Origin: a methanogenic archaeon
Lineage (GTDB): Archaea > Thermoplasmatota > Thermoplasmata > Methanomassiliicoccales > Methanomethylophilaceae
Reading direction: 5' to 3'
Assembly: GCA_902787415.1 (NCBI GenBank)
Contig: CADAGG010000002.1
Span: 1 to 26,902, forward strand
Length of the DNA stretch: 26,902 bases
Shown one piece after another: positions 1 to 26,902 of this stretch. Each line of letters opens with the position of its first letter. The stretch's first letter is position 1. The translations under genes and the position numbers were made by a program. The notes beneath the pieces were generated by a model. The model was not told the origin of the DNA. It saw only the letters and a program-made list of their open reading frames with translations, and made no database searches.

Positions 1-18
1 TGCTCTGGGAAGGCCCAT
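1..18 (-). CDS. Start of an unidentified gene, cut by window edge
   Basis: An ATG at 18-16 lies one base after the stop codon of the ubiquitin-like gene and opens a frame with no stop up to the window edge, encoding only MGLPRA. The tight spacing is typical of a cotranscribed, translationally coupled gene, and a GGCGG stretch lies just upstream as a possible ribosome binding site. In ubiquitin-like operons the third member is often an E2-like enzyme, and some E2 proteins begin with a similar Gly-Leu-Pro-Arg stretch. Six residues cannot establish this, so the identity is left open. Confidence 0.4.
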
Positions 19-19
19 G

Positions 20-253
20 TCATCCGCCCTGGGGGTCGGGAACCAGCTCTACGGTATCTCCTTCGGACACACCGGCCTCGCTGAGCGTGGCGCTCTCCGG
101 GATCAGCCTGCTGCCGACCCTCATGATGAATGCGCTGCGGTCCCTCTTCCAGTACTGGGAGGCGAATACAATAACATCGCCGGCCGAATCCGTCGGATCC
201 ATCTCGGCGGCGATCTCCCCTCCGTCCATCGTGTTCACAATCCTGATTCTCAT
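20..253 (-). CDS. Ubiquitin-like beta-grasp protein with C-terminal Gly-Gly
   Basis: A 77-residue protein with a ubiquitin-like layout. It has a strand-forming start (MRIRIVNTMDGGEI), a central stretch ending in MRVGSRLIPESATL, and a final SEGDTVELVP strand. That latter half aligns by eye with the ubiquitin segment containing GKQLEDGRTL and ESTLHLV. The chain ends exactly at Gly76-Gly77 with no tail, the mature form a ubiquitin-type modifier needs for adenylation. It resembles ubiquitin more than MoaD/ThiS-type sulfur carriers. Its ATG overlaps the E1 stop as ATGA (253-250), so the two are probably translated together. Inference: it is the substrate of the neighbouring E1 and is conjugated to proteins or used as a sulfur carrier. 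The family assignment is by pattern reading only. Confidence 0.78.
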   Translation of the reverse strand: MRIRIVNTMDGGEIAAEMDPTDSAGDVIVFASQYWKRDRSAFIMRVGSRLIPESATLSEAGVSEGDTVELVPDPQGG

Positions 254-1008
254 TGGCTCAACTCTCCTTCGTGATGGGGGCATCCCCTGCGGAACCCAAT
301 CTCCAGCACGTCCGTCCTTCCCGAGATGCCGTCGTAGTAGCTGACCCCCGGGACGCAAAGGTCCGTCCTCCCGCACACGATCTTCAGGACCTCCCTCACG
401 CACATGGCCGCGATGACGGCGGTGGTGGTGATCCCCGACGAGAGGATCACGGGGTCCCGGACCGTCTCCCCGGGGATGCACGAGAAGGTCCTGTGCAGCT
501 CCTCCAGGTGCGTGGAGTTCATGCCGCACTCGAGGCACGGCCCCTTCGGGAACACGGTCTGCATCTTGCCGCGGAAACCGTCCGTGGCCCCGTCCACATA
601 GGGTATGCGGAAGAACCTCGCATGGGCGTTCAGATGCAGTCTGGCACTTATGCTGTCGAGGCATCCTATGAGGATGCCGAAGCGCGACAGGTCGGTCCTC
701 TGAATGGTGTCCGGGACGGCGGTCACGCGGCATTCCGGATCGAGCTCGGAGGCTGCCTCGGCAACGACCTCCGCCTTGTTCCTCCCCACCGATTCCTCCC
801 GGAAGAGTACGCAGCGGCTGAGGTTGCTCCTCTCCACCGTGTCGAAGTCTGCCACGGTGATGTCGCGGAAACCCGCAAGGACCAGATTCTTGATGACCTC
901 GTTGCCGAGGGCACCCGCACCTGCCACGAAGACGGGGGTCCCGTGGATGCGGGACATATCGATCCATCCTGTGCGTTCCATGCGGTCGAACCTGTCGTCT
1001 TTCGGCAA
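250..1008 (-). CDS. E1-like ubiquitin-activating enzyme (ThiF/UBA family)
   Basis: 252 residues with an adenylation-domain layout. RFDR lies near the N-terminus; the nucleotide loop GAGALG is at 30-35; DFD at 54-56 is followed by the conserved SNLSR (61-65) and GRNK (75-78); the acidic D118 of the LDSISAR segment follows. A CLEC pair (C158, C161) and a late CPHH (C243, H246) could bind one zinc. IPYVDGATDGF followed by TFSCIPG (C177) matches the position of the catalytic cysteine in eukaryotic UBA2/UBA3, so this looks more like a thioester-forming E1 than plain MoeB or ThiF. The start chosen is TTG at 1008, because the first ATG (981) would remove the conserved RFDR; GGTG lies five bases before the TTG. 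It overlaps the ubiquitin-like gene by four bases. An alternative role is sulfur-carrier activation. Confidence 0.85.
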   Translation of the reverse strand: MPKDDRFDRMERTGWIDMSRIHGTPVFVAGAGALGNEVIKNLVLAGFRDITVADFDTVERSNLSRCVLFREESVGRNKAEVVAEAASELDPECRVTAVPDTIQRTDLSRFGILIGCLDSISARLHLNAHARFFRIPYVDGATDGFRGKMQTVFPKGPCLECGMNSTHLEELHRTFSCIPGETVRDPVILSSGITTTAVIAAMCVREVLKIVCGRTDLCVPGVSYYDGISGRTDVLEIGFRRGCPHHEGELSQ

Positions 1009-6206: not shown

Positions 6207-7157
6207 ATGACATCGCTGAAGGAGGTGGGCGAGAGGCAGCTGGTGGAGACCGTCAAGAGCATCATCAGGCCGCGCTCCAAATCCACCGTCGTGGGCCCGG
6301 GGGACGATGCCGCCGTCATCAGGAACCCGTCCGGCGACATCGTGGTCTCCACCGACGTGGTCACGGAGGAGAGGCATCTCCCCGAGACCATGACCTACGA
6401 GCAGTTCGGCTGGACGGCCGCCGCCGTGAACTTCAGCGACATCGCCAGCATGGGCGCGAGGCCCCTGGGCTTCCTCCCGGCGGTGACAATCCCGGAGGAT
6501 GCCGACGAATCGGTCCTCTACGACATCATGAGCGGCATCGACCAGTGCTGCGAGTTCTGCAAGACGGAGGTCGTCGGCGGCGACACCAAGTTCGGTTCCC
6601 TGGCCGTGGCCGGGACCGCAATCGGCACCATGGAGGGCAGGAAGCCCATGACCCGCCGCGGCGCACAGCCCGGCGACATCGTGGCGGTGACCGGCATGCT
6701 CGGAGGACCCGCCGCAGGATACTATGCTATCAAGAACGGCTTCGAGGCCGAGGACCAGATCTTCTCGCTGATGGTCCCGGTGCCCCACGTGGAGGACGGG
6801 ATCAAGCTGTCTGGCACTGGTGCGGTGCACTCGTGCATGGACCTCTCCGACGGACTCGCCAACGCGGCCACCGAGATCTGCAGGCAGTCCCATGTGGGGA
6901 TGGAGATCGAGTGGGAGTTCCTGCCCGTCGACGACGAGGTCAAGGACATCCTCGAGGCCAGCCACGCCGACCTGAGGGACACCGTCACCAGGTGGGGAGG
7001 GGAGTACGAGCTCCTGTTCACCCTGGACCGCGCCGACCTCCAGAAGCTGTACGACGCGGGCATCGCGTTCTCGATAATCGGCCTGGTGACGAACGGAGAA
7101 GGTCCCGTCCTGAACGACGGGGAAGAGAGGAAGGTGATGGAGAACGGCATTTATTAA
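6207..7157 (+). CDS. thiL: Thiamine-monophosphate kinase
   Basis: 316 residues of the ThiL/PurM-like ATP-binding fold. ThiL phosphorylates thiamine monophosphate to the active cofactor thiamine diphosphate. Motifs are GPGDDAAV (30-37), STDVVTEERHL (48-58), NFSDIASMGARP (75-86), GGDT (124-127), PGDIVAVTG (155-163), CMDLSDGLA and a C-terminal GGEYELLFT. The ATG at 6207 is chosen because the TATA box places transcription there and the family usually begins close to this residue; a TTG at 6186 is upstream of the predicted transcript. The two downstream acetolactate synthases depend on the cofactor it makes. It overlaps or abuts the next gene, depending on that gene's start. Confidence 0.92.
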   Translation: MTSLKEVGERQLVETVKSIIRPRSKSTVVGPGDDAAVIRNPSGDIVVSTDVVTEERHLPETMTYEQFGWTAAAVNFSDIASMGARPLGFLPAVTIPEDADESVLYDIMSGIDQCCEFCKTEVVGGDTKFGSLAVAGTAIGTMEGRKPMTRRGAQPGDIVAVTGMLGGPAAGYYAIKNGFEAEDQIFSLMVPVPHVEDGIKLSGTGAVHSCMDLSDGLANAATEICRQSHVGMEIEWEFLPVDDEVKDILEASHADLRDTVTRWGGEYELLFTLDRADLQKLYDAGIAFSIIGLVTNGEGPVLNDGEERKVMENGIY

Positions 7158-7164
7158 TCCGAAT

Positions 7165-8157
7165 CTGGAAGCAAAGTGCTATCACGCGGACGGCGACAGG
7201 ATCGTCTGCGACCTGTGCCCGCACAGATGCGTCATCCCGGCCGACAGGTTCGGCCTCTGCAAGTCCCGCAAGAACGTGGACGGCAAGCTGGTGGCGTACA
7301 ACTACGGGCGCATCTCGACCATGGCGGTCGACCCCATCGAGAAGAAGCCCCTCTACCACTTCCATCCCGGTTCCAGCATCTTCTCCATCGGCGGCATCGG
7401 GTGCAACATGCACTGCGATTACTGCCAGAACTACTCCATCTCGCAGTCGCCCATCGGCAAGAAGCGCACCACCTACAAGTCCCCCGCCGATCTGGTGGCA
7501 TTCTGCAGGCAGCAGGGATATACCCAGATGGCCTTCACATACAACGAGCCGTCCATCTGGTACGAGTACATCCGCGACACCATGGACCTGGCGCCCGACA
7601 TCGACATGGTGCTGGTCTCCAACGGGATGATCAACGAGGATCCCCTGAAGGACCTCTGCAAGGGTATCAAGGCCATCAACATCGATGTCAAGGCGTTCAG
7701 GGACGAGTTCTACAAGAACCTCTGCGGAGGCGACCTGGAGGCCGTGAAATCGTCATGCGAGATCGCCTACGCCTCGAAGGTCCATCTGGAACTCACCTAT
7801 CTTGTGATTCCGGGTTACAACGACACCGTGGACGAGGTCCTGAAGTTCGTCAAGTGGGCCCACGAGCACCTCAGCCCCGACATACCCATCCACTTCACCC
7901 GCTTCCATCCCGATTACAACATGATGGCGGTGAGGACCACCCCCGTGGACACCCTCCTCAAGCTGCAGAAGGTGGCCGAGGACCACGGCATGCACCACGT
8001 GTACGTGGGCAACGTACTGACCGACGAGGGTTCCAACACCTACTGTCCCGAGTGCGGGGAGATGGTCATCAGGAGGACGGGTTACAGGGTGCACGTCTCC
8101 GGACTCTCCGGCAACCGCTGCAACTACTGCGGCCACAGGCTCAACATAATACGCTGA
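7165..8157 (+). CDS. amrS: AmrS-like radical SAM enzyme
   Basis: About 330 residues of the COG1180 family that includes the AmmeMemoRadiSam radical SAM protein and PflA-like activases. Counting from CTG 7165, an N-terminal cysteine set C15, C18, C22, C32 is followed by the radical SAM motif C80-x3-C84-x2-C87 (GCNMHCDYCQN). A C-terminal zinc-ribbon-like pair of CxxC motifs (YCPEC and CNYCG) follows. The homologous N-terminus (EAKCYHADGDRIVCDLC) is in frame, but no ATG, GTG or TTG precedes it after the in-frame stop at 7135. Candidate starts are CTG 7165 or ATT 7153; GGTGAT (7133-7138) and GGAG (7139-7142) lie upstream. GTG 7276 would delete the conserved cysteines. Its 3' end overlaps the convergent peptidase gene by 17 bases. 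Its substrate is unknown. Confidence 0.85.
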   Translation: MEAKCYHADGDRIVCDLCPHRCVIPADRFGLCKSRKNVDGKLVAYNYGRISTMAVDPIEKKPLYHFHPGSSIFSIGGIGCNMHCDYCQNYSISQSPIGKKRTTYKSPADLVAFCRQQGYTQMAFTYNEPSIWYEYIRDTMDLAPDIDMVLVSNGMINEDPLKDLCKGIKAINIDVKAFRDEFYKNLCGGDLEAVKSSCEIAYASKVHLELTYLVIPGYNDTVDEVLKFVKWAHEHLSPDIPIHFTRFHPDYNMMAVRTTPVDTLLKLQKVAEDHGMHHVYVGNVLTDEGSNTYCPECGEMVIRRTGYRVHVSGLSGNRCNYCGHRLNIIR

Positions 8158-20207: not shown

Positions 20208-21869
20208 ATGAAAGGCTCGAAAGCACTGTTAAAAATGCTTGAGGACAGAGGGGTCAGCAGCGTGTTCGGCTACCCCGGTGCCACCGTCATCCCCATCTAC
20301 GATGAGTTTCTGGAGTCCAACGTAAGGCATATCCTCGTAAGGCACGAGCAGTGCGCCGCCCACATGGCCGACGGTTACGCGAGGGCCACCGGAACCCCCG
20401 GGGTCTGCCTCGCCACCAGCGGACCCGGAACCACCAACCTGGTCACCGGAATCGCCACCGCCTATGCGGATTCCGTCCCCATGATCGCACTCACCGGACA
20501 GGTCGGCACCAACTTCCTCGGCGCCGAGGCCTTCCAGGAAGTCGACTCCTACAGCCTCATGATGCCTGTCACCAAGCACAACTTCAGGGTCCTCGACCCC
20601 GAGCGCCTCCCCCACGCCATCAACGAGGGATGGAAGATCTGCCAGTCGGGAAGGCCCGGACCGGTCCACATCGACATGCCCGTCGACCAGATCAACTCCG
20701 ACATCGACGAGGACCTGCTCACCAAGGAGTGGGGCGTCAAGGAACCCGCCACCGACGTCTCCCGCATCAACGATGCGGCCCTCCTCATCAAGAACTCCGC
20801 CCGCCCCGTCCTCCTCATCGGAGGAGGCGCCATCAACGCCTCCGAGGAGATCGTCAAGCTCGCGGAATTCGCCAACATACCGGTCATCACCACCCTCATG
20901 AGCCTCGGTATCGTGCCCTCCGGACACCCCCTCAACATGGGACCTCTGGGTATGCACGGCAGGATGGGTGCCCTGGACCTCTTCCAGTCGGCCGACCTCA
21001 TCATCGCCATCGGCACCAAGTTCTCCGACAGGACCTACAACCCCCACACCATGCCCGCCGAGAACTGCAAGGTCATCCAGATCGACGTGGACAGCACCCA
21101 GTTCGGAAAGAGCAAGAGGGGCTCCGTCGACATCCTCTGCGATGCCAAGAGGGGAACCAAGCTGCTCCTGGACGCCCTCAGGGGATACAAGGACTGCAAG
21201 TCCGAGTGGAACGAGAGGTACGCCAAGCTCAGGAAGAGATGCCAGTGCAGCTTCGACATCAACACCGACCCCATCGCGCCCCAGAAGGTCATGTGCGAGA
21301 TCAACAAGCTCCTGGACGGAGACGTCATCGTCACCACCGACGTCGGCCAGAACCAGATGTGGTCCATGCACTGCCTCGACATCAGGAGGCCCAGGCAGTT
21401 CATCACCTCGGGTTCCTTCGGAACCATGGGATTCGGACTGCCCTCCGCCATGGGCGCCAAGGTCGCCAAGCCCGACTCCAAGGTGCTCACCATCGTCGGG
21501 GACGGTGGACTGCAGATGGTCTGCCAGGAGCTCGCCACCTCCGTGGCGGAGGACATACCCGTCACCATCGTCCTCCTCAACAACGGATGGCTCGGCATGG
21601 TCAGGCAGTGGCAGAAGCTCTTCTGGGACAAGCGTTTCAGCGGCACCAAGCTCAACGCCGACCCCGACTTCGTGAAGCTCGCCGAGTCCTTCGGCGCCAC
21701 CGGAATCCACGTGGAGAAGTCCTCCGAGGTCGGAGACGCCCTCAAACAGGCCATGGATTCCGATGTCACCTGTCTGGTCGACATCCACACCAACCCCGAA
21801 GAGGATATCTGCCCCATGATCCTCGCGGACCCCAAGGTCCCCATCGTCAAGGGCAGATGCACCTATTGA
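20208..21869 (+). CDS. ilvB: Acetolactate synthase large subunit (copy 1)
   Basis: 553 residues, thiamine-diphosphate enzyme. It joins two pyruvates, or pyruvate and 2-oxobutyrate, in branched-chain amino-acid synthesis. The catalytic Glu is E47 in RHEQCAAH, after GYPGATVIPIYDE. The FAD-binding middle domain contains GGGAINASEE and MGPLGMHG. The C-terminal cofactor motif is GDGGLQM followed about 25 residues later by NNGWLGMV. GSFGTMGFGLPSAMG is the family signature. No small regulatory subunit (ilvN/ilvH) is next to it. A paralogue of identical length lies 2.4 kb downstream in the same orientation. The first 50 residues of the two agree at 36 positions by my count. Confidence 0.93.
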   Translation: MKGSKALLKMLEDRGVSSVFGYPGATVIPIYDEFLESNVRHILVRHEQCAAHMADGYARATGTPGVCLATSGPGTTNLVTGIATAYADSVPMIALTGQVGTNFLGAEAFQEVDSYSLMMPVTKHNFRVLDPERLPHAINEGWKICQSGRPGPVHIDMPVDQINSDIDEDLLTKEWGVKEPATDVSRINDAALLIKNSARPVLLIGGGAINASEEIVKLAEFANIPVITTLMSLGIVPSGHPLNMGPLGMHGRMGALDLFQSADLIIAIGTKFSDRTYNPHTMPAENCKVIQIDVDSTQFGKSKRGSVDILCDAKRGTKLLLDALRGYKDCKSEWNERYAKLRKRCQCSFDINTDPIAPQKVMCEINKLLDGDVIVTTDVGQNQMWSMHCLDIRRPRQFITSGSFGTMGFGLPSAMGAKVAKPDSKVLTIVGDGGLQMVCQELATSVAEDIPVTIVLLNNGWLGMVRQWQKLFWDKRFSGTKLNADPDFVKLAESFGATGIHVEKSSEVGDALKQAMDSDVTCLVDIHTNPEEDICPMILADPKVPIVKGRCTY

Positions 21870-22315: not shown

Positions 22316-24208
22316 ATGGGGATCGTCAAAGAGGCAATCATCGGACAAAAGTCGGAGTTCACGCTAATTGTCATCGGTGCGATATGCATTTTCATCTCAC
22401 TGTTGACAGACTCATTCGGTTGGCTGCTGTTCATTCCCATCGCAATCTGCGGTATCCCCATCATCTGGGGAGCGATCATCGGGGTCGTGTTCGAACGCGA
22501 CATCACCGCTGACGTACTAGTCTCCGTGGCGATTGTCGCCAGTGTCATCATAGGGGAATACGAGGCCGCGGCCGAGGTCGCGGTCATCATGCAGATCGGA
22601 GGTTTCCTCGAAGAAGCTACGGTCAGTCATGCCAACAGCTGTATTGCGCACCTCCAGGGAATGAATCCCACCGAAGCAAGGGTCATCCGCGACGGGAAGG
22701 AGGAGATGGTGGACCCTGAATCCCTGCATGTCAGAGACATCGTAAGGATCCTTCCCGGTGAGACCGTTCCCGCTGACGGAAGGGTATCCGAAGGCACCTC
22801 CTCCATCGACGTATCCATCATCACCGGCGAATCCACCCCCGTGGATGTGACGGCGGGGGACAGGGTTTCCGCGGGAACCGTCAACATGTACGGTTCGGTG
22901 GATGTGGAGGTGGACAGGGTCGGAAAGGATTCGACCCTCGCGCGCATGGCAAGACTCATCGAGGAGGCCGATGCGAACAAATCCCGTATCGTCCGCACCG
23001 CTGACAGGTGGGCAGTATACATCGTCGTAACCGCATTCGCCGTATCGGTAGTGACCTACCTCTTGACGCAGGACATCTACAGGTCGGTCACGGTACTGGT
23101 CGTCTTCTGTCCCTGCGCACTGATCCTGGCAACCCCGACCGCAATCATGGCCGCGGCCGGTAACCTCAGCAAGCACGGCATCCTGGTGAAGGACGGCGGG
23201 GCATTGGAGAACCTATCCTCCGTGGACACTGTAATGATGGATAAGACCGGTACTCTCACCGCCGGCAAGGTGCAATGCGTTGCGGTCAGATCCATGGATC
23301 CGACCTTGACCGACGGGGAACTTGCAGGACTCGTCGCATCCGTGGAATCGAGATCCGAACACCCGCTCGGAAAGGCCATCACCGAATTCACCGGCAGCTG
23401 GGATGCACCCGAGGATTTCATCTACGTCCCTGGACTCGGTGTTAACGGCACCGTCGGGGGAAGGGAGGTATTCGCAGGCAACAGGTCGTTCCTCCGTGAC
23501 AGCTGTCCTGAATGCTTCGATGCCGTCGAGGAGGAGGTTTCCCGTCAGGAAGAGGACGGGTTCACTGTGGTGCTCATAGGTATAGACGGCAGGACCGTCG
23601 GTTATGCGGCATTGTCCGACACCCTCCGCCCCTCTTCCAGATTCGCCATCAGTCAGATGAAGACCCAGAACATAAAAAGCATACTTATCACCGGGGATTC
23701 GAGACAGGCCGCTCAGCGCACCTCCGGACTCCTCGGGATGGATGACGTCATTTGGGAATGCCTGCCCTCCGACAAGCTCAGGATCGTATCCAAGATCGAC
23801 TGCAACAACAACGGCTGTATGATCGGGGACGGCGTTAACGACGCCCCTTCCCTGAAGAAAGCGACCGTGGGCATCGCCATATGCAATGCCAACAACGATC
23901 TGGCGATGGAATCCTCGGACATCGTATTCATGAACGACGATCTGTCCAGACTCCCCGGGCTCATCCGCATGGCGAAACGTACCCTGTTGACCATCAGGAT
24001 AGGTATCGCGTTCTCACTGATTCTGAACACCGTGGCGATGGCCCTTGCGGTTCTGGGCATCATCGGACCTATCGTCGGCGCCCTGGTGCATAACATCGGT
24101 TCGGTGATTGTCATCATCGCCTCCGCGATGCTCCTCAGATACGATCCGTGGGAGGTCACGGACGGTTCTGAAAGCACTCCTGCCGACACACCCTATAGGT
24201 GTGAATAA
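22316..24208 (+). CDS. P1B-type heavy-metal ATPase
   Basis: 630 residues. An ion-pumping ATPase of the plasma membrane: actuator TGES (170-173), metal-site CPC (265-267) in VFCPCALILATP, phosphorylated D309 in DKTGTLT, the P1B-specific H349-P350 in SRSEHPLG, and GDGVNDAPS in the hinge region. It starts directly with membrane helices and has no N-terminal metal-binding domain or CxxC. The last membrane helix carries HNIGS rather than the MxxSS expected for copper pumps, so copper specificity is uncertain although the operator and neighbouring CsoR suggest it; zinc, cadmium or another metal is possible. Codon choice is looser than in the flanking genes, with more ATA, GTA and TCG codons by eye, which hints at transfer. 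Confidence 0.9.
   Translation: MGIVKEAIIGQKSEFTLIVIGAICIFISLLTDSFGWLLFIPIAICGIPIIWGAIIGVVFERDITADVLVSVAIVASVIIGEYEAAAEVAVIMQIGGFLEEATVSHANSCIAHLQGMNPTEARVIRDGKEEMVDPESLHVRDIVRILPGETVPADGRVSEGTSSIDVSIITGESTPVDVTAGDRVSAGTVNMYGSVDVEVDRVGKDSTLARMARLIEEADANKSRIVRTADRWAVYIVVTAFAVSVVTYLLTQDIYRSVTVLVVFCPCALILATPTAIMAAAGNLSKHGILVKDGGALENLSSVDTVMMDKTGTLTAGKVQCVAVRSMDPTLTDGELAGLVASVESRSEHPLGKAITEFTGSWDAPEDFIYVPGLGVNGTVGGREVFAGNRSFLRDSCPECFDAVEEEVSRQEEDGFTVVLIGIDGRTVGYAALSDTLRPSSRFAISQMKTQNIKSILITGDSRQAAQRTSGLLGMDDVIWECLPSDKLRIVSKIDCNNNGCMIGDGVNDAPSLKKATVGIAICNANNDLAMESSDIVFMNDDLSRLPGLIRMAKRTLLTIRIGIAFSLILNTVAMALAVLGIIGPIVGALVHNIGSVIVIIASAMLLRYDPWEVTDGSESTPADTPYRCE
24187..24203. repeat. Inverted repeat at end of ATPase gene
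   Basis: CACACC, five bases, GGTGTG overlaps the last codons of the ATPase gene, about 35 bases before the TATA box of the second ilvB. It could be a hairpin at the 3' end or an operator; nothing else supports either reading. Confidence 0.3.
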
Positions 24209-24236
24209 GCCAGATGTAATGTCGACGAGCCCTATG

Positions 24237-24246
24237 TTTTATATTA
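24237..24246 (+). promoter_or_regulatory. TATA box of second ilvB
   Basis: ttttatatta predicts transcription start near 24267, six bases before the ATG at 24273. The gene thus has its own promoter and is not driven only from the metal cassette. Confidence 0.6.
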
Positions 24247-24272
24247 GGGGGACCGATAACACACTGATTCAT

Positions 24273-25934
24273 ATGAAGGGCTCAAGAGCACTGCTCCAAA
24301 TGCTTGAGGACAGAGACGTCGAAACAATGTTCGGATATCCCGGAGGGGCCGTCATCCCCATCTACGATGAGATCAGGGATTCCTCCATCAGGCACGTTCT
24401 CGTAAGGCACGAGCAGTGCGCCGCCCACGCTGCCGACGGTTACGCACGTGCCAGCGGCAAGACCGGCGTCTGCCTTTCCACCAGCGGACCCGGTGCCACC
24501 AACATGGTCACCGGAATCGCCACCGCATATGCGGACTCCATCCCCATGCTGGCACTTACGGGACAGGTCGGTTCCAAGGTGCTCGGATCGGAGGCCTTCC
24601 AGGAGGTCGACGCCTACAGCCTGATGATGTCCGTCACCAAGCACAACTTCCGCGTCACCGACGTCAAGAGGCTCCCCCACGCCATCAACGAGGCATGGAA
24701 GATCGCCCAGTCCGGCAGGCCCGGACCCGTCCACGTCGACCTTCCCGTCGACCAGATAAACGCACAGATCGACGAGGATCTGCTCTACCAGGAATTCGGA
24801 ATCAAAGAGCCCACCGAGGACGTTTCCGGTCTTGCAGATGCCGTGGCACTCATCAAAAGTTCCGTGAAACCCGTCATCATGGCCGGAGGAGGAGTCATCT
24901 CCGCCGAGGCCTCCGAGGAGCTGGTCCGCTTCGCAGAGCTGATCTCAGCTCCCGTGGTCACTCCCATGATGGGTATCGGATCCATCCCCACCCAGCACCC
25001 GCTCAACATGGGTCCCCTCGGAATGCACGGGAGGATCTGCGCCAAGGAGGCGTTCACCGAGGCCGACCTGGTCATCGCCGTGGGAACCAAGTTCTCCGAC
25101 AGGACCTACAGCCCCCACACCGCCCCCGGCATGAAGTGCGGCGTCATCCAGATTGACATCGACGGAACCCAGTTCGGAAAGAGCAACAGGAACTCCGTCA
25201 ACCTCAAATGCGACGCCAAGAAGGCACTGCAGATGCTCATCGACGCCCTCGGCAACACCGCCGCCCACGACTCGTGGGCCAGGACCGCCAAGGGATACAA
25301 GGAGCGCAGGAACGTCGACTTCAACTACTTCACCCACCCCATCATCCCCCAGAAGGTCATGTGGGAGCTGAACAAGTTCATCGACAACACCATCGTCACC
25401 ACCGACGTCGGCCAGAACCAGATGTGGGCCATGCACTTCCTCGACATCAAGAGGCCCAGGCAGTTCCTCTCGTCCGGTTCCTTCGGAACCATGGGATTCG
25501 GTCTGCCGGCAGCCATCGGAGCCAAGGCCGCCCGCCCCGACTGCAGGGTCGCCACCGTCGTGGGAGACGGAGGACTGCAGATGGTCATACAGGAGCTCGC
25601 GACCTCCGTCGCCGAGGACCTGCCCGTGGTCATCGTCCTGCTCAACAACGGCTGGCTCGGCATGGTCAAGCAGTGGCAGAAACTGTTCTGGGACAAGCGC
25701 TACTCCGAGACCCTCCTCGAGGACGATCCCGACTTCGTGCAGATCGCCAAGGCATACAGGGCCGAGGGAATCACCGTCGAGAGGGCGGGAGAGGTCGAGG
25801 ACGCGCTGAAGTTCGCCTTCGACTGCGGCAAGACCTGCATCGTCGACATCCACGTCGACCCCGAGGAGGACATCCTGCCGATGCTGCCTCCCGACCCCAG
25901 CATCCCTCCCATCGAAGGACGCTGCGCCTACTGA
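24273..25934 (+). CDS. ilvB: Acetolactate synthase large subunit (copy 2)
   Basis: 553 residues, same length and motifs as copy 1: GYPGGAVIPIYDE, catalytic E47 in RHEQCAAH, GGGVISAEAS in the FAD domain, GSFGTMGFGLPAAIG, and GDGGLQM with NNGWLGMV for the thiamine diphosphate. Differences cluster in the middle domain and the C-terminus. The ATG at 24273 is chosen because the TATA box and the homology with copy 1 both begin here; an upstream extension would overlap the ATPase gene. Two copies might differ in substrate preference (2-oxobutyrate or pyruvate) or in feedback control. No ilvN/ilvH is near this copy either. Confidence 0.93.
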   Translation: MKGSRALLQMLEDRDVETMFGYPGGAVIPIYDEIRDSSIRHVLVRHEQCAAHAADGYARASGKTGVCLSTSGPGATNMVTGIATAYADSIPMLALTGQVGSKVLGSEAFQEVDAYSLMMSVTKHNFRVTDVKRLPHAINEAWKIAQSGRPGPVHVDLPVDQINAQIDEDLLYQEFGIKEPTEDVSGLADAVALIKSSVKPVIMAGGGVISAEASEELVRFAELISAPVVTPMMGIGSIPTQHPLNMGPLGMHGRICAKEAFTEADLVIAVGTKFSDRTYSPHTAPGMKCGVIQIDIDGTQFGKSNRNSVNLKCDAKKALQMLIDALGNTAAHDSWARTAKGYKERRNVDFNYFTHPIIPQKVMWELNKFIDNTIVTTDVGQNQMWAMHFLDIKRPRQFLSSGSFGTMGFGLPAAIGAKAARPDCRVATVVGDGGLQMVIQELATSVAEDLPVVIVLLNNGWLGMVKQWQKLFWDKRYSETLLEDDPDFVQIAKAYRAEGITVERAGEVEDALKFAFDCGKTCIVDIHVDPEEDILPMLPPDPSIPPIEGRCAY

Positions 25935-26059: not shown

Positions 26060-26902
26060 ATGTCCGTCCGCTGGACCTTGATGGCAGTCTCCGCAGTGCT
26101 GGCAGTGGTATGCGTGTTCATGATCTGCGACGCGGACGGCTCGGACGCGGATCCCGCTTCTGGCCAATGCGGTAACAACCTGTACTGGAGCATGTCTGGA
26201 GGATGCGCCACATTCACGGGATCCGGCCACATGTGGGATTATACCTACGCCGATGAACGCGGATGGGAGGATTGTACCTCGGTCATTCTACAAAACGGAG
26301 TTACCAGTATCGGGAATTATGCTTTCTGCGGTTGTTCATCGCTCGCATCCGTGGCCATCCCCGACTTGGTCACATCCATCGGGGATAGCGCGTTCAATGG
26401 TTGTTCATCGCTCGCATCCGTGGCCATCCCCGACTCGGTCACCTCTATGGGGGATAATTCGTTCGGCGGTTGTACATCGCTCGCATCCGTGACCATCGGC
26501 AATTCGGTCACATCCATCGGGACTGAGGCGTTCGGCGGTTGTACATCGCTCGCATCTGTGACCATCCCCGACTCGGTCACATCCATCGGGCATCGTGCGT
26601 TCGAAGAGTGTACATCTCTTGTTTCCATAGCCGTAGACGAAGGAAACGAGAATTATTCGTCCGAAGATGGAGTTCTTTTCAATAAGAACAAGACAATGTT
26701 GGTACAATGCCCCGGAGGAAAGGAAGGTGGATATTCGATTCCAGCATCGGTCACCTCCATCGGGGCTGAGGCGTTCTACGGTTGTTCATCGCTCGCATCC
26801 GTGACCATCCCCGACTCGGTCACATCCATCGGGACTGAGGCGTTCGGCGGTTGTACATCGCTCGCATCTGTGACCATCCCCGACTCGGTCACATCCATCG
26901 GG
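26060..26902 (+). CDS. BspA-type leucine-rich-repeat surface protein (partial, 3' cut)
   Basis: The first 281 codons of a longer gene; no stop occurs before the window end. A signal sequence with a hydrophobic core (about residues 6-23, VSAVLAVVCVFMICDA) is followed by a 60-residue non-repeat region with GNNLYWSMSGGCATFTGSG. From about residue 88 there are 23-residue LRR_5 repeats such as TSIGTEAFGGCTSLASVTIP. The stretch at about 195-232 (DGVLFNKNKTMLVQCPGG) is the spacer commonly seen between repeats in BspA proteins. It should be secreted and either attached to the cell surface or released; in host-associated microbes such proteins often mediate adhesion. The C-terminal anchor is outside the window. 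Confidence 0.85.
   Translation, partial: MSVRWTLMAVSAVLAVVCVFMICDADGSDADPASGQCGNNLYWSMSGGCATFTGSGHMWDYTYADERGWEDCTSVILQNGVTSIGNYAFCGCSSLASVAIPDLVTSIGDSAFNGCSSLASVAIPDSVTSMGDNSFGGCTSLASVTIGNSVTSIGTEAFGGCTSLASVTIPDSVTSIGHRAFEECTSLVSIAVDEGNENYSSEDGVLFNKNKTMLVQCPGGKEGGYSIPASVTSIGAEAFYGCSSLASVTIPDSVTSIGTEAFGGCTSLASVTIPDSVTSIG
26321..26902 (+). repeat. Tandem 69-bp coding repeats
   Basis: Units begin at 26321, 26390, 26459, 26528 and 26597, then after a spacer at 26771 and 26840, each 69 bases apart within a block. The two segments 26504-26590 and 26816-26902 are identical over 87 bases, up to the window edge. The identity at third codon positions indicates recent duplication or gene conversion. 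Confidence 0.9.

Follow-up and report, generated by a model that had tools for sequence, protein, structure and literature searches.

Reports on Aigarchaeota and Asgard archaea describe ubiquitin-type protein conjugation that involves an E2 and a RING protein (PMC5654768, PMC6043591). The Caldiarchaeum/Asgard operon comprises a modifier, an E1, an E2, a RING E3, and an Rpn11-like JAMM protease, i.e., the same kinds of parts as those considered here. The Caldiarchaeum modifier is a precursor with residues past its Gly-Gly, as are some modifiers described below, and its tail is trimmed by Rpn11 (PMC5654768). Fuchs et al. noted JAMM proteins whose operons also encode homologues of Ub, E1, and E2 (PMC6043591), and the 2014 survey by Grau-Bove et al. 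added Crenarchaeota and one marine group II euryarchaeote, each with partial sets of parts (PMC4327156). James et al. searched the archaeal genome assemblies available in February 2017 for clusters of this type (PMC5654768), and cassettes of the kind reported here may already appear in a supplementary figure of that 2017 study. Term searches in the available portions of PMC5654768, PMC6043591, and PMC4327156 showed no mention of Thermoplasmata or methanogens, and a search of open-licence literature by title or abstract start found no description of such a system in Methanomassiliicoccales.

Two further groups of systems share parts with this locus. The SAMP/UbaA/HvJAMM1 system of Haloferax and the MoaD–MoeB and ThiS–ThiF pairs have in common with it the E1 superfamily fold, a small Gly-Gly protein, and a JAMM protein. 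The bacterial Bil/Bub and CBASS E1-E2-JAB cassettes combine the same kinds of parts in one operon (PMC11354881). Here, an E1-like gene and a ubiquitin-like gene at the edge of a methanogen contig are compared with these systems.

Results

Organization of the Locus

The window, i.e., the whole stretch of DNA analysed, is the complete contig C2 (26,902 bases) of a genome (G000) estimated to be 82.6% complete. The features of the locus, in window coordinates, are as follows:

250–1008, minus strand: E1-like activating enzyme ORF (252 aa, TTG start; Pfam ThiF, 1.1e-46; model pLDDT 83.7)
478–480, minus strand: codon of C177, the presumed thioester Cys (read from the sequence; C in 97 of 100 aligned rows)
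20–253, minus strand: ubiquitin-like modifier ORF (77 aa, Gly-Gly C-terminus; beta-grasp model, pLDDT 93.5)
23–28, minus strand: terminal Gly-Gly codons of the modifier (read from the sequence; PDPxGG in aligned modifiers)
1–18, minus strand: first six codons of an E2 gene (MGLPRA; start identical to that of the G037 E2)

The sequence-only reading had described a 77-residue protein ending exactly in Gly-Gly, coupled through ATGA to an E1 carrying the segments TFSCIPG (with C177) and IPYVDGATDGF. All of these elements are present on the minus strand, with the E1 stop codon and the modifier start codon overlapping at 250–253. A relative of the E1 with 89% identity (P0008) starts with Met at the position of the TTG start.

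The operon is truncated by the contig end 19 bases beyond the modifier stop codon. The MGLPRA reading frame begins one base past that stop on the minus strand; G037, whose E2 shares this start, is the nearest relative. The rest of the E2 of this genome, a C-terminal part with HPN and the catalytic Cys, lies on contig C86, where it is followed by a JAMM-like gene and then by two genes that resemble those of G037 when compared by eye. The E2 fragment on C86 (L195, approximately 6709–7906) is fused upstream to a sequence unlike E2; the gap between C2 and C86 may therefore stem from misassembly, and C86 may be a chimeric contig.

Other parts of the window were noted in passing. An ORF at 1071–1266 on the plus strand, divergent from the E1 gene, encodes a small protein that contains Cys pairs and has a hydrophobic segment at its C-terminus; G037 and other relatives carry a similar ORF upstream of their E1. 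Two similar large plus-strand ORFs (20208–21869 and 24108–25934), which resemble acetolactate synthase subunits, flank a P-type-ATPase-like ORF. A repetitive plus-strand ORF at 26060–26902, with a TSIG.AF..C.SL motif and presumably leucine-rich-repeat-like, continues beyond the window end.

The Modifier

The predicted structure of the modifier is a beta-grasp fold, with strands and helix in the beta-grasp order, in agreement with the ubiquitin fold that had been read from the sequence. The terminal PDPxGG is invariant, position x excepted, in 36 of 36 aligned modifiers. The last Lys or Arg of the window modifier is R49, so trypsin-based proteomics for Gly-Gly remnants would miss this modifier, whose tryptic remnant would span 28 residues (L50–G77).

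The same reading had placed the modifier closer to ubiquitin than to SAMP/MoaD proteins. Among the 60 of 92 solved chains listed, the modifier profile matched ubiquitin and neither MoaD nor ThiS; its strong scores were sums over ubiquitin chains, and single ubiquitins gave E values of 0.003 to 0.04. Pfam, on the other side, returned YukD about as often as ubiquitin: at E 0.1, YukD matched 24, ubiquitin 21, and ThiS 2 of the 36 family members. The window modifier scored 16.7 bits against the Pfam ubiquitin model PF00240 (E 0.006; curated cutoff 25.4), a cutoff reached by one of the ten relatives scanned (L256, 33.9 bits).

The E1-like Enzyme

The motifs GAGALG, N62/R65, K78, D118, and C177 are all intact in the window E1. 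C177 is absent from the decayed G039 and G044 and from one half of a split gene. In the E1 model, C177 lies in a low-confidence loop (residues 171–191). Proteins of the MoeB/ThiF kind likewise carry a Cys near this position, and C177 by itself is thus weak evidence. At 252 aa, the enzyme is compact and lacks the separate Cys domain of the E1s of 414–422 aa.

The claim that the E1 is eukaryote-like is borne out by profile similarity and by phylogeny. The family profile favoured UBA3 (130 bits) and UBA2 (123 bits) over MoeB (93 bits) and ThiF (83 bits), with lower scores for UBA5 (56 bits) and Uba4 (47 bits); the score for UBA1 was 137 bits summed over two domains, the better of which gave 85. 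The single window sequence searched against NCBIfam pointed the other way, since its top match was ThiF (107 bits of a 275-bit cutoff), compared with 72 bits for Ube1. It was below the cutoff for the ThiF and MoeB models, as well as for the UbaA model NF047750 (83.4 of 450 bits). In databases, the proteins are entered as ThiF family, and the NCBI name of the Methanoplasma termitum protein is SAMP-activating enzyme.

The phylogeny agrees with the profile. In a tree of 58 rows, rooted on an outgroup of our choice within which long branches may meet, the E1 family, UBA1, UBA3, and the long Thermoplasmatota E1s share a branch with 100/99 support. Escherichia coli MoeB and ThiF and the archaeal homologues lie outside this branch, so that the E1 is not placed within MoeB/ThiF. 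The labels MoeB-like, TcdA-like, and ThiF2-like for archaeal rows are our own and follow motifs of these groups; the end branches of L213 and L201 are also long, and the two eukaryotic rows are fragments.

Long E1s were observed in L207 (G163, 422 aa) and L208 (G152, 414 aa). They align to UBA3 well past residue 170 and are adjoined by E2 and JAMM genes. By sequence, they appear to be a second, more eukaryote-like type within the phylum.

Gene Order and Distribution of the Cassette

Of 147 genomes of the order Methanomassiliicoccales, 99 encode an E1 of this family (E 1e-30 or better), and these represent 28 of 30 genera. In relatives, it heads a single-strand cassette of E1, modifier, E2 (UQ_con), and JAMM protease (JAB). 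Of 100 E1 rows from the 99 genomes (window included, one E1 gene being split), 96 are followed by a modifier, 92 by an E2, and 94 by a JAMM gene, in every case downstream on the strand of the E1. Contig ends truncate or split three of the four rows that lack a modifier; the fourth is G044. More generally, missing cassette genes are explained by contig ends or the split gene, except in G039, G042, and G044, in which the E2 search found no E2 anywhere in the genome; G044 also has no modifier.

UQ_con was above cutoff in all three E2s scanned and JAB in all three intact JAMM proteins. In G037 and G038, where the JAMM-like protein is altered, it gave no Pfam family above cutoff. An HPN-x10-C motif is present in 91 of 92 E2 rows, the remaining row being masked. 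The nearest solved structures are UBE2T and Rad6-type E2s for the E2 profile, and Rpn11 and CSN5 for the intact JAMM (PDB). An E2 was found in 96 of the 147 genomes of the order versus none of 14 control genomes, and in 82 of 389 genomes sampled across the phylum. These data support the proposal that a Thermoplasmatota methanogen has a system for protein conjugation, because E2 and JAMM genes complete the cassette in relatives and E2 and JAMM-like sequence is present in the window's own genome.

An E1-only scan of the contigs of named genomes found no relative. A scan with the E2 alignment yielded 81 loci, of which the best 80 were kept, and all 80 are titled Thermoplasmatota, Euryarchaeota, a group therein, or archaeon; Candidatus Methanoplasma termitum is a named carrier of the cassette. 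In 65 of these best 80, all four genes occur on one strand in the order E1-modifier-E2-JAMM, and in the other 15, one or two genes are missing on short contigs or the order differs. Separately, a modifier-like domain fused to E2 was observed in L205, L206, and L214, the latter two adjoining JAMM and E1 genes.

Modifier Tails and the JAMM Protease

The modifiers of many genera carry 1 to 10 residues beyond the Gly-Gly. Among 88 rows in which modifier and JAMM were both readable, 55 combine a tail with an intact JAMM motif, 27 an exact Gly-Gly end with an intact motif, and six an exact end with a broken motif; a tail with a broken motif occurs in none of the 88, such that the motif is intact in 55 of 55 tailed rows. 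The count excludes five of 93 rows, namely G109, in which frames are shifted, G011 and G048, in which the JAMM frame is masked or open, and G039 and G042 (modifier without Gly-Gly), and it includes G052 as intact with HTH in place of HSH. The named loci (best 80 of 81), which are largely the same genomes, gave 37 tail/intact, 34 exact/intact, four exact/broken, and no tail/broken cases. The window's genome, in which the JAMM-like gene has lost its catalytic motif, and G041 (L296) are further cases of an exact end with a broken motif. A broken JAMM is thus found in the window's genome and seven others, all with a modifier ending exactly in Gly-Gly.

In the E1 + E2 tree, the JAMM motif breaks twice, in the window's genus and in G066. 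The relatives of G066 in that part of the tree carry tails, and its placement among them is weak (SH-aLRT 7, 85, and 16 on the three nearest branches); in the smaller E1 tree, its placement is starred, with 98/92 support for a grouping with a g14 row. A sign test of JAMM loss versus tail loss has two independent pairs and gives p 0.5, and the link between JAMM and tail therefore rests on the 55/55 pattern and on both losses having the same direction. As read from the genes, the pattern is what a tail-trimming protease would predict, and two events are too few for a test.

Decay within the Window's Genus

In three genomes of the window's genus, G039, G042, and G044, the E2 has been lost, the E1 is without catalytic residues, the JAMM-like motif is broken, and the modifier either lacks Gly-Gly or is absent. 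Their cassettes (L156, L153, and L138 for G042, G039, and G044, respectively) were still observed with open frames. In four others of the genus (G034, G035, G036, and G040), searches found no E1 at 1e-30 and no E2, and G034 retains an E1-like fragment. The E1, the modifier Gly-Gly, the E2 Cys, and the RING motifs are intact in G000 and G037.

A RING Protein as Candidate E3

Matches to the Pfam RING model stayed below threshold in all 13 genomes of the order that were searched, and sub-threshold matches also occurred in five of 14 control genomes. Ten of the matches from the 13 genomes form a single family, which is characterized by zinc ribbons and a RING-like motif of the C4HC3 type. The RING is preceded by a strong hydrophobic segment in eight of the ten and by a weak one in another, and none was seen in the last.

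A model of this family, built from ten cassette-bearing genomes only, was used to score all 147 genomes of the order. A genome was counted as positive at E ≤ 1e-14 with a match starting within the first 18 model positions, a criterion set after viewing the matches; the weaker matches listed all start from position 37 onward, so that they miss most of the RING. Among the matches listed, 90 genomes have both RING and E2, six E2 only, three RING only, and 48 neither, corresponding to a phi of 0.868, versus −0.041 for a ThiS control. When the genus g9, which has neither RING nor E2, was removed, the values were 0.746 and −0.003, respectively. All six E2-only genomes are less than 90% complete. Among the three genomes with a RING match only, G011 carries the E1, modifier, and JAMM genes and its E2 is masked, and G067 is 68% complete; G122 (91% complete), in which no E1 (at 1e-30) or E2 was found, is an exception.

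Within the order, the RING gene is unlinked to the cassette, and in three other Thermoplasmatota (G151, G162, and G167) a homologous RING gene adjoins it. The G167 locus encodes, on one strand, a RING protein followed by the E1, the modifier, the E2, and a JAMM that was matched in part. In G151 and G162, a giant protein with a terminal RING lies between E1 and modifier, and G151 has an additional membrane RING protein before the E1. The giant frames span 1664–11128 of L337 (3155 residues) and 1574–11167 of L338 (3198 residues), and that of L337 matched no Pfam family at E 0.001. Given the co-occurrence with E2 and the presence of RING proteins in loci of other Thermoplasmatota, the RING family is taken as the probable E3 of the system.

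Discussion

The E1 and modifier of the window very probably constitute half of a ubiquitin-like protein-conjugation system. As in Caldiarchaeum, the E1, modifier, E2, and Rpn11-like JAMM genes are found together; in the genome of the window, they are divided between two contigs. The best reading is nevertheless a variant of the Caldiarchaeum/Asgard kind rather than that type itself, because the E1 of about 252 aa has no catalytic Cys domain. Compared with the Caldiarchaeum/Asgard systems as described in the literature, the long insert of the E1 is lacking, the gene order is E1-modifier-E2-JAMM, the RING gene is unlinked within the order and its product usually has a hydrophobic segment, and the JAMM is broken in the window's genus. 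The eukaryotic UBA3/UBA2, E2s, and Rpn11/CSN5 are the nearest solved relatives of the E1, E2, and JAMM, respectively, whereas, in contrast to eukaryotic E1 subunits, the E1 has neither a Cys domain nor a C-terminal ubiquitin-fold domain. Several observations count against a conjugation system: the match of the modifier to Pfam ubiquitin is below cutoff and YukD is as frequent among relatives, the E1 lacks the Cys domain, the JAMM of this genome is broken, the sign test on JAMM and tail loss gives p 0.5, the RING is unlinked and below the Pfam cutoff, sub-threshold RING matches occur in control genomes too, and a RING protein but no E1 or E2 was found in G122.

A sulfur-carrier pair of the SAMP/Urm1, MoaD, or ThiS type, in which the modifier would bear a thiocarboxylate for tRNA or cofactor thiolation and protein modification would be secondary at most, shares the E1 superfamily and the Gly-Gly end with this locus. 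It would also suit the name SAMP-activating enzyme, the sub-cutoff ThiF match as the best NCBIfam score, and the result that no ThiS was found in the window's own, 82.6% complete genome. Yet E2 and JAMM genes follow the modifier in nearly all relatives and a RING partner is present, the UbaA and desampylase models remain far below cutoff, and the E1 occupies the 100/99 branch from which MoeB and ThiF are separate. Moreover, ThiS genes score above cutoff elsewhere in ten of 13 genomes, several of them adjoining a ThiF-like gene (e.g., G037 and G071). Because of the E2 and of these separate ThiS and ThiF-like genes, a sulfur-carrier function was set aside as highly improbable. A bacterial-type defence system (Bil/Bub or type II CBASS), tagging phage or signalling proteins, would have the same kinds of parts (modifier, E1, E2, and JAMM), and PADLOC does return weak and partial matches for the E1 (E1-E2 models, at best 48 bits over about 80 residues; BilD, 25 bits) and for the JAMM. 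PADLOC gives no match for the modifier or the E2, however, the solved structures closest to E1 and JAMM come from eukaryotes, and a RING partner accompanies the system. Defence islands are sporadic in distribution, unlike this order-wide cassette, which keeps a fixed gene order and occurs in 28 of 30 genera. A defence role is accordingly rated as quite improbable.

It might also be argued that the system functions in the order and is a decaying relic in the window's genus. The broken JAMM of this genome is in line with this, as are the losses of E2 and E1 catalytic residues in three genomes of the genus and the missing E1 and E2 in four more. Against it stand the intact E1, Gly-Gly, E2 Cys, and RING motifs of G000 and G037, and an exact Gly-Gly end is what a working system free of a protease would require; a relic is thus considered unlikely.

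In the conjugation system envisaged, the E1 would adenylate the Gly-Gly end of the modifier and hold the modifier as a thioester on C177. The modifier would then be transferred to the E2, whose gene comes next, at its catalytic Cys, and from there to substrate lysines, probably guided by the RING E3, which is mostly predicted to be membrane-anchored and whose gene lies at another site in the genome. The JAMM of most relatives would expose the Gly-Gly of tailed modifiers and might also remove the tag. In the window's genus, where the JAMM site is lost and the modifier already ends in Gly-Gly, tagging may be one-way or reversed by another enzyme. Gene content, order, and conservation, the intact catalytic motifs of E1 and E2, and co-occurrence can be read directly from the genomes and the fold is a prediction, whereas each chemical step, the role of the E3, and the substrates are inferred. 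A broader proposal, to which we give about even chances, is that Thermoplasmatota have a complete branch of their own, inherited outside the Caldiarchaeum/Asgard lines and working at the membrane, and that one genus became protease-free and one-way and then underwent stepwise loss, of the JAMM site, then the E2, and then the modifier Gly-Gly and the E1 active site.

Ubiquitin-like tagging systems are best known from eukaryotes, and a probable one is found here in most of the genera examined of a methanogen order, where current database names mask it. The candidate RING protein suggests a membrane-located role. With its cassette in 28 of 30 genera, the order offers a small, naturally occurring form of the system on a further archaeal branch, and its natural variants (modifiers with or without a tail, a working or broken protease, and loss of the E2) make the roles of Gly-Gly processing and of the protease testable.
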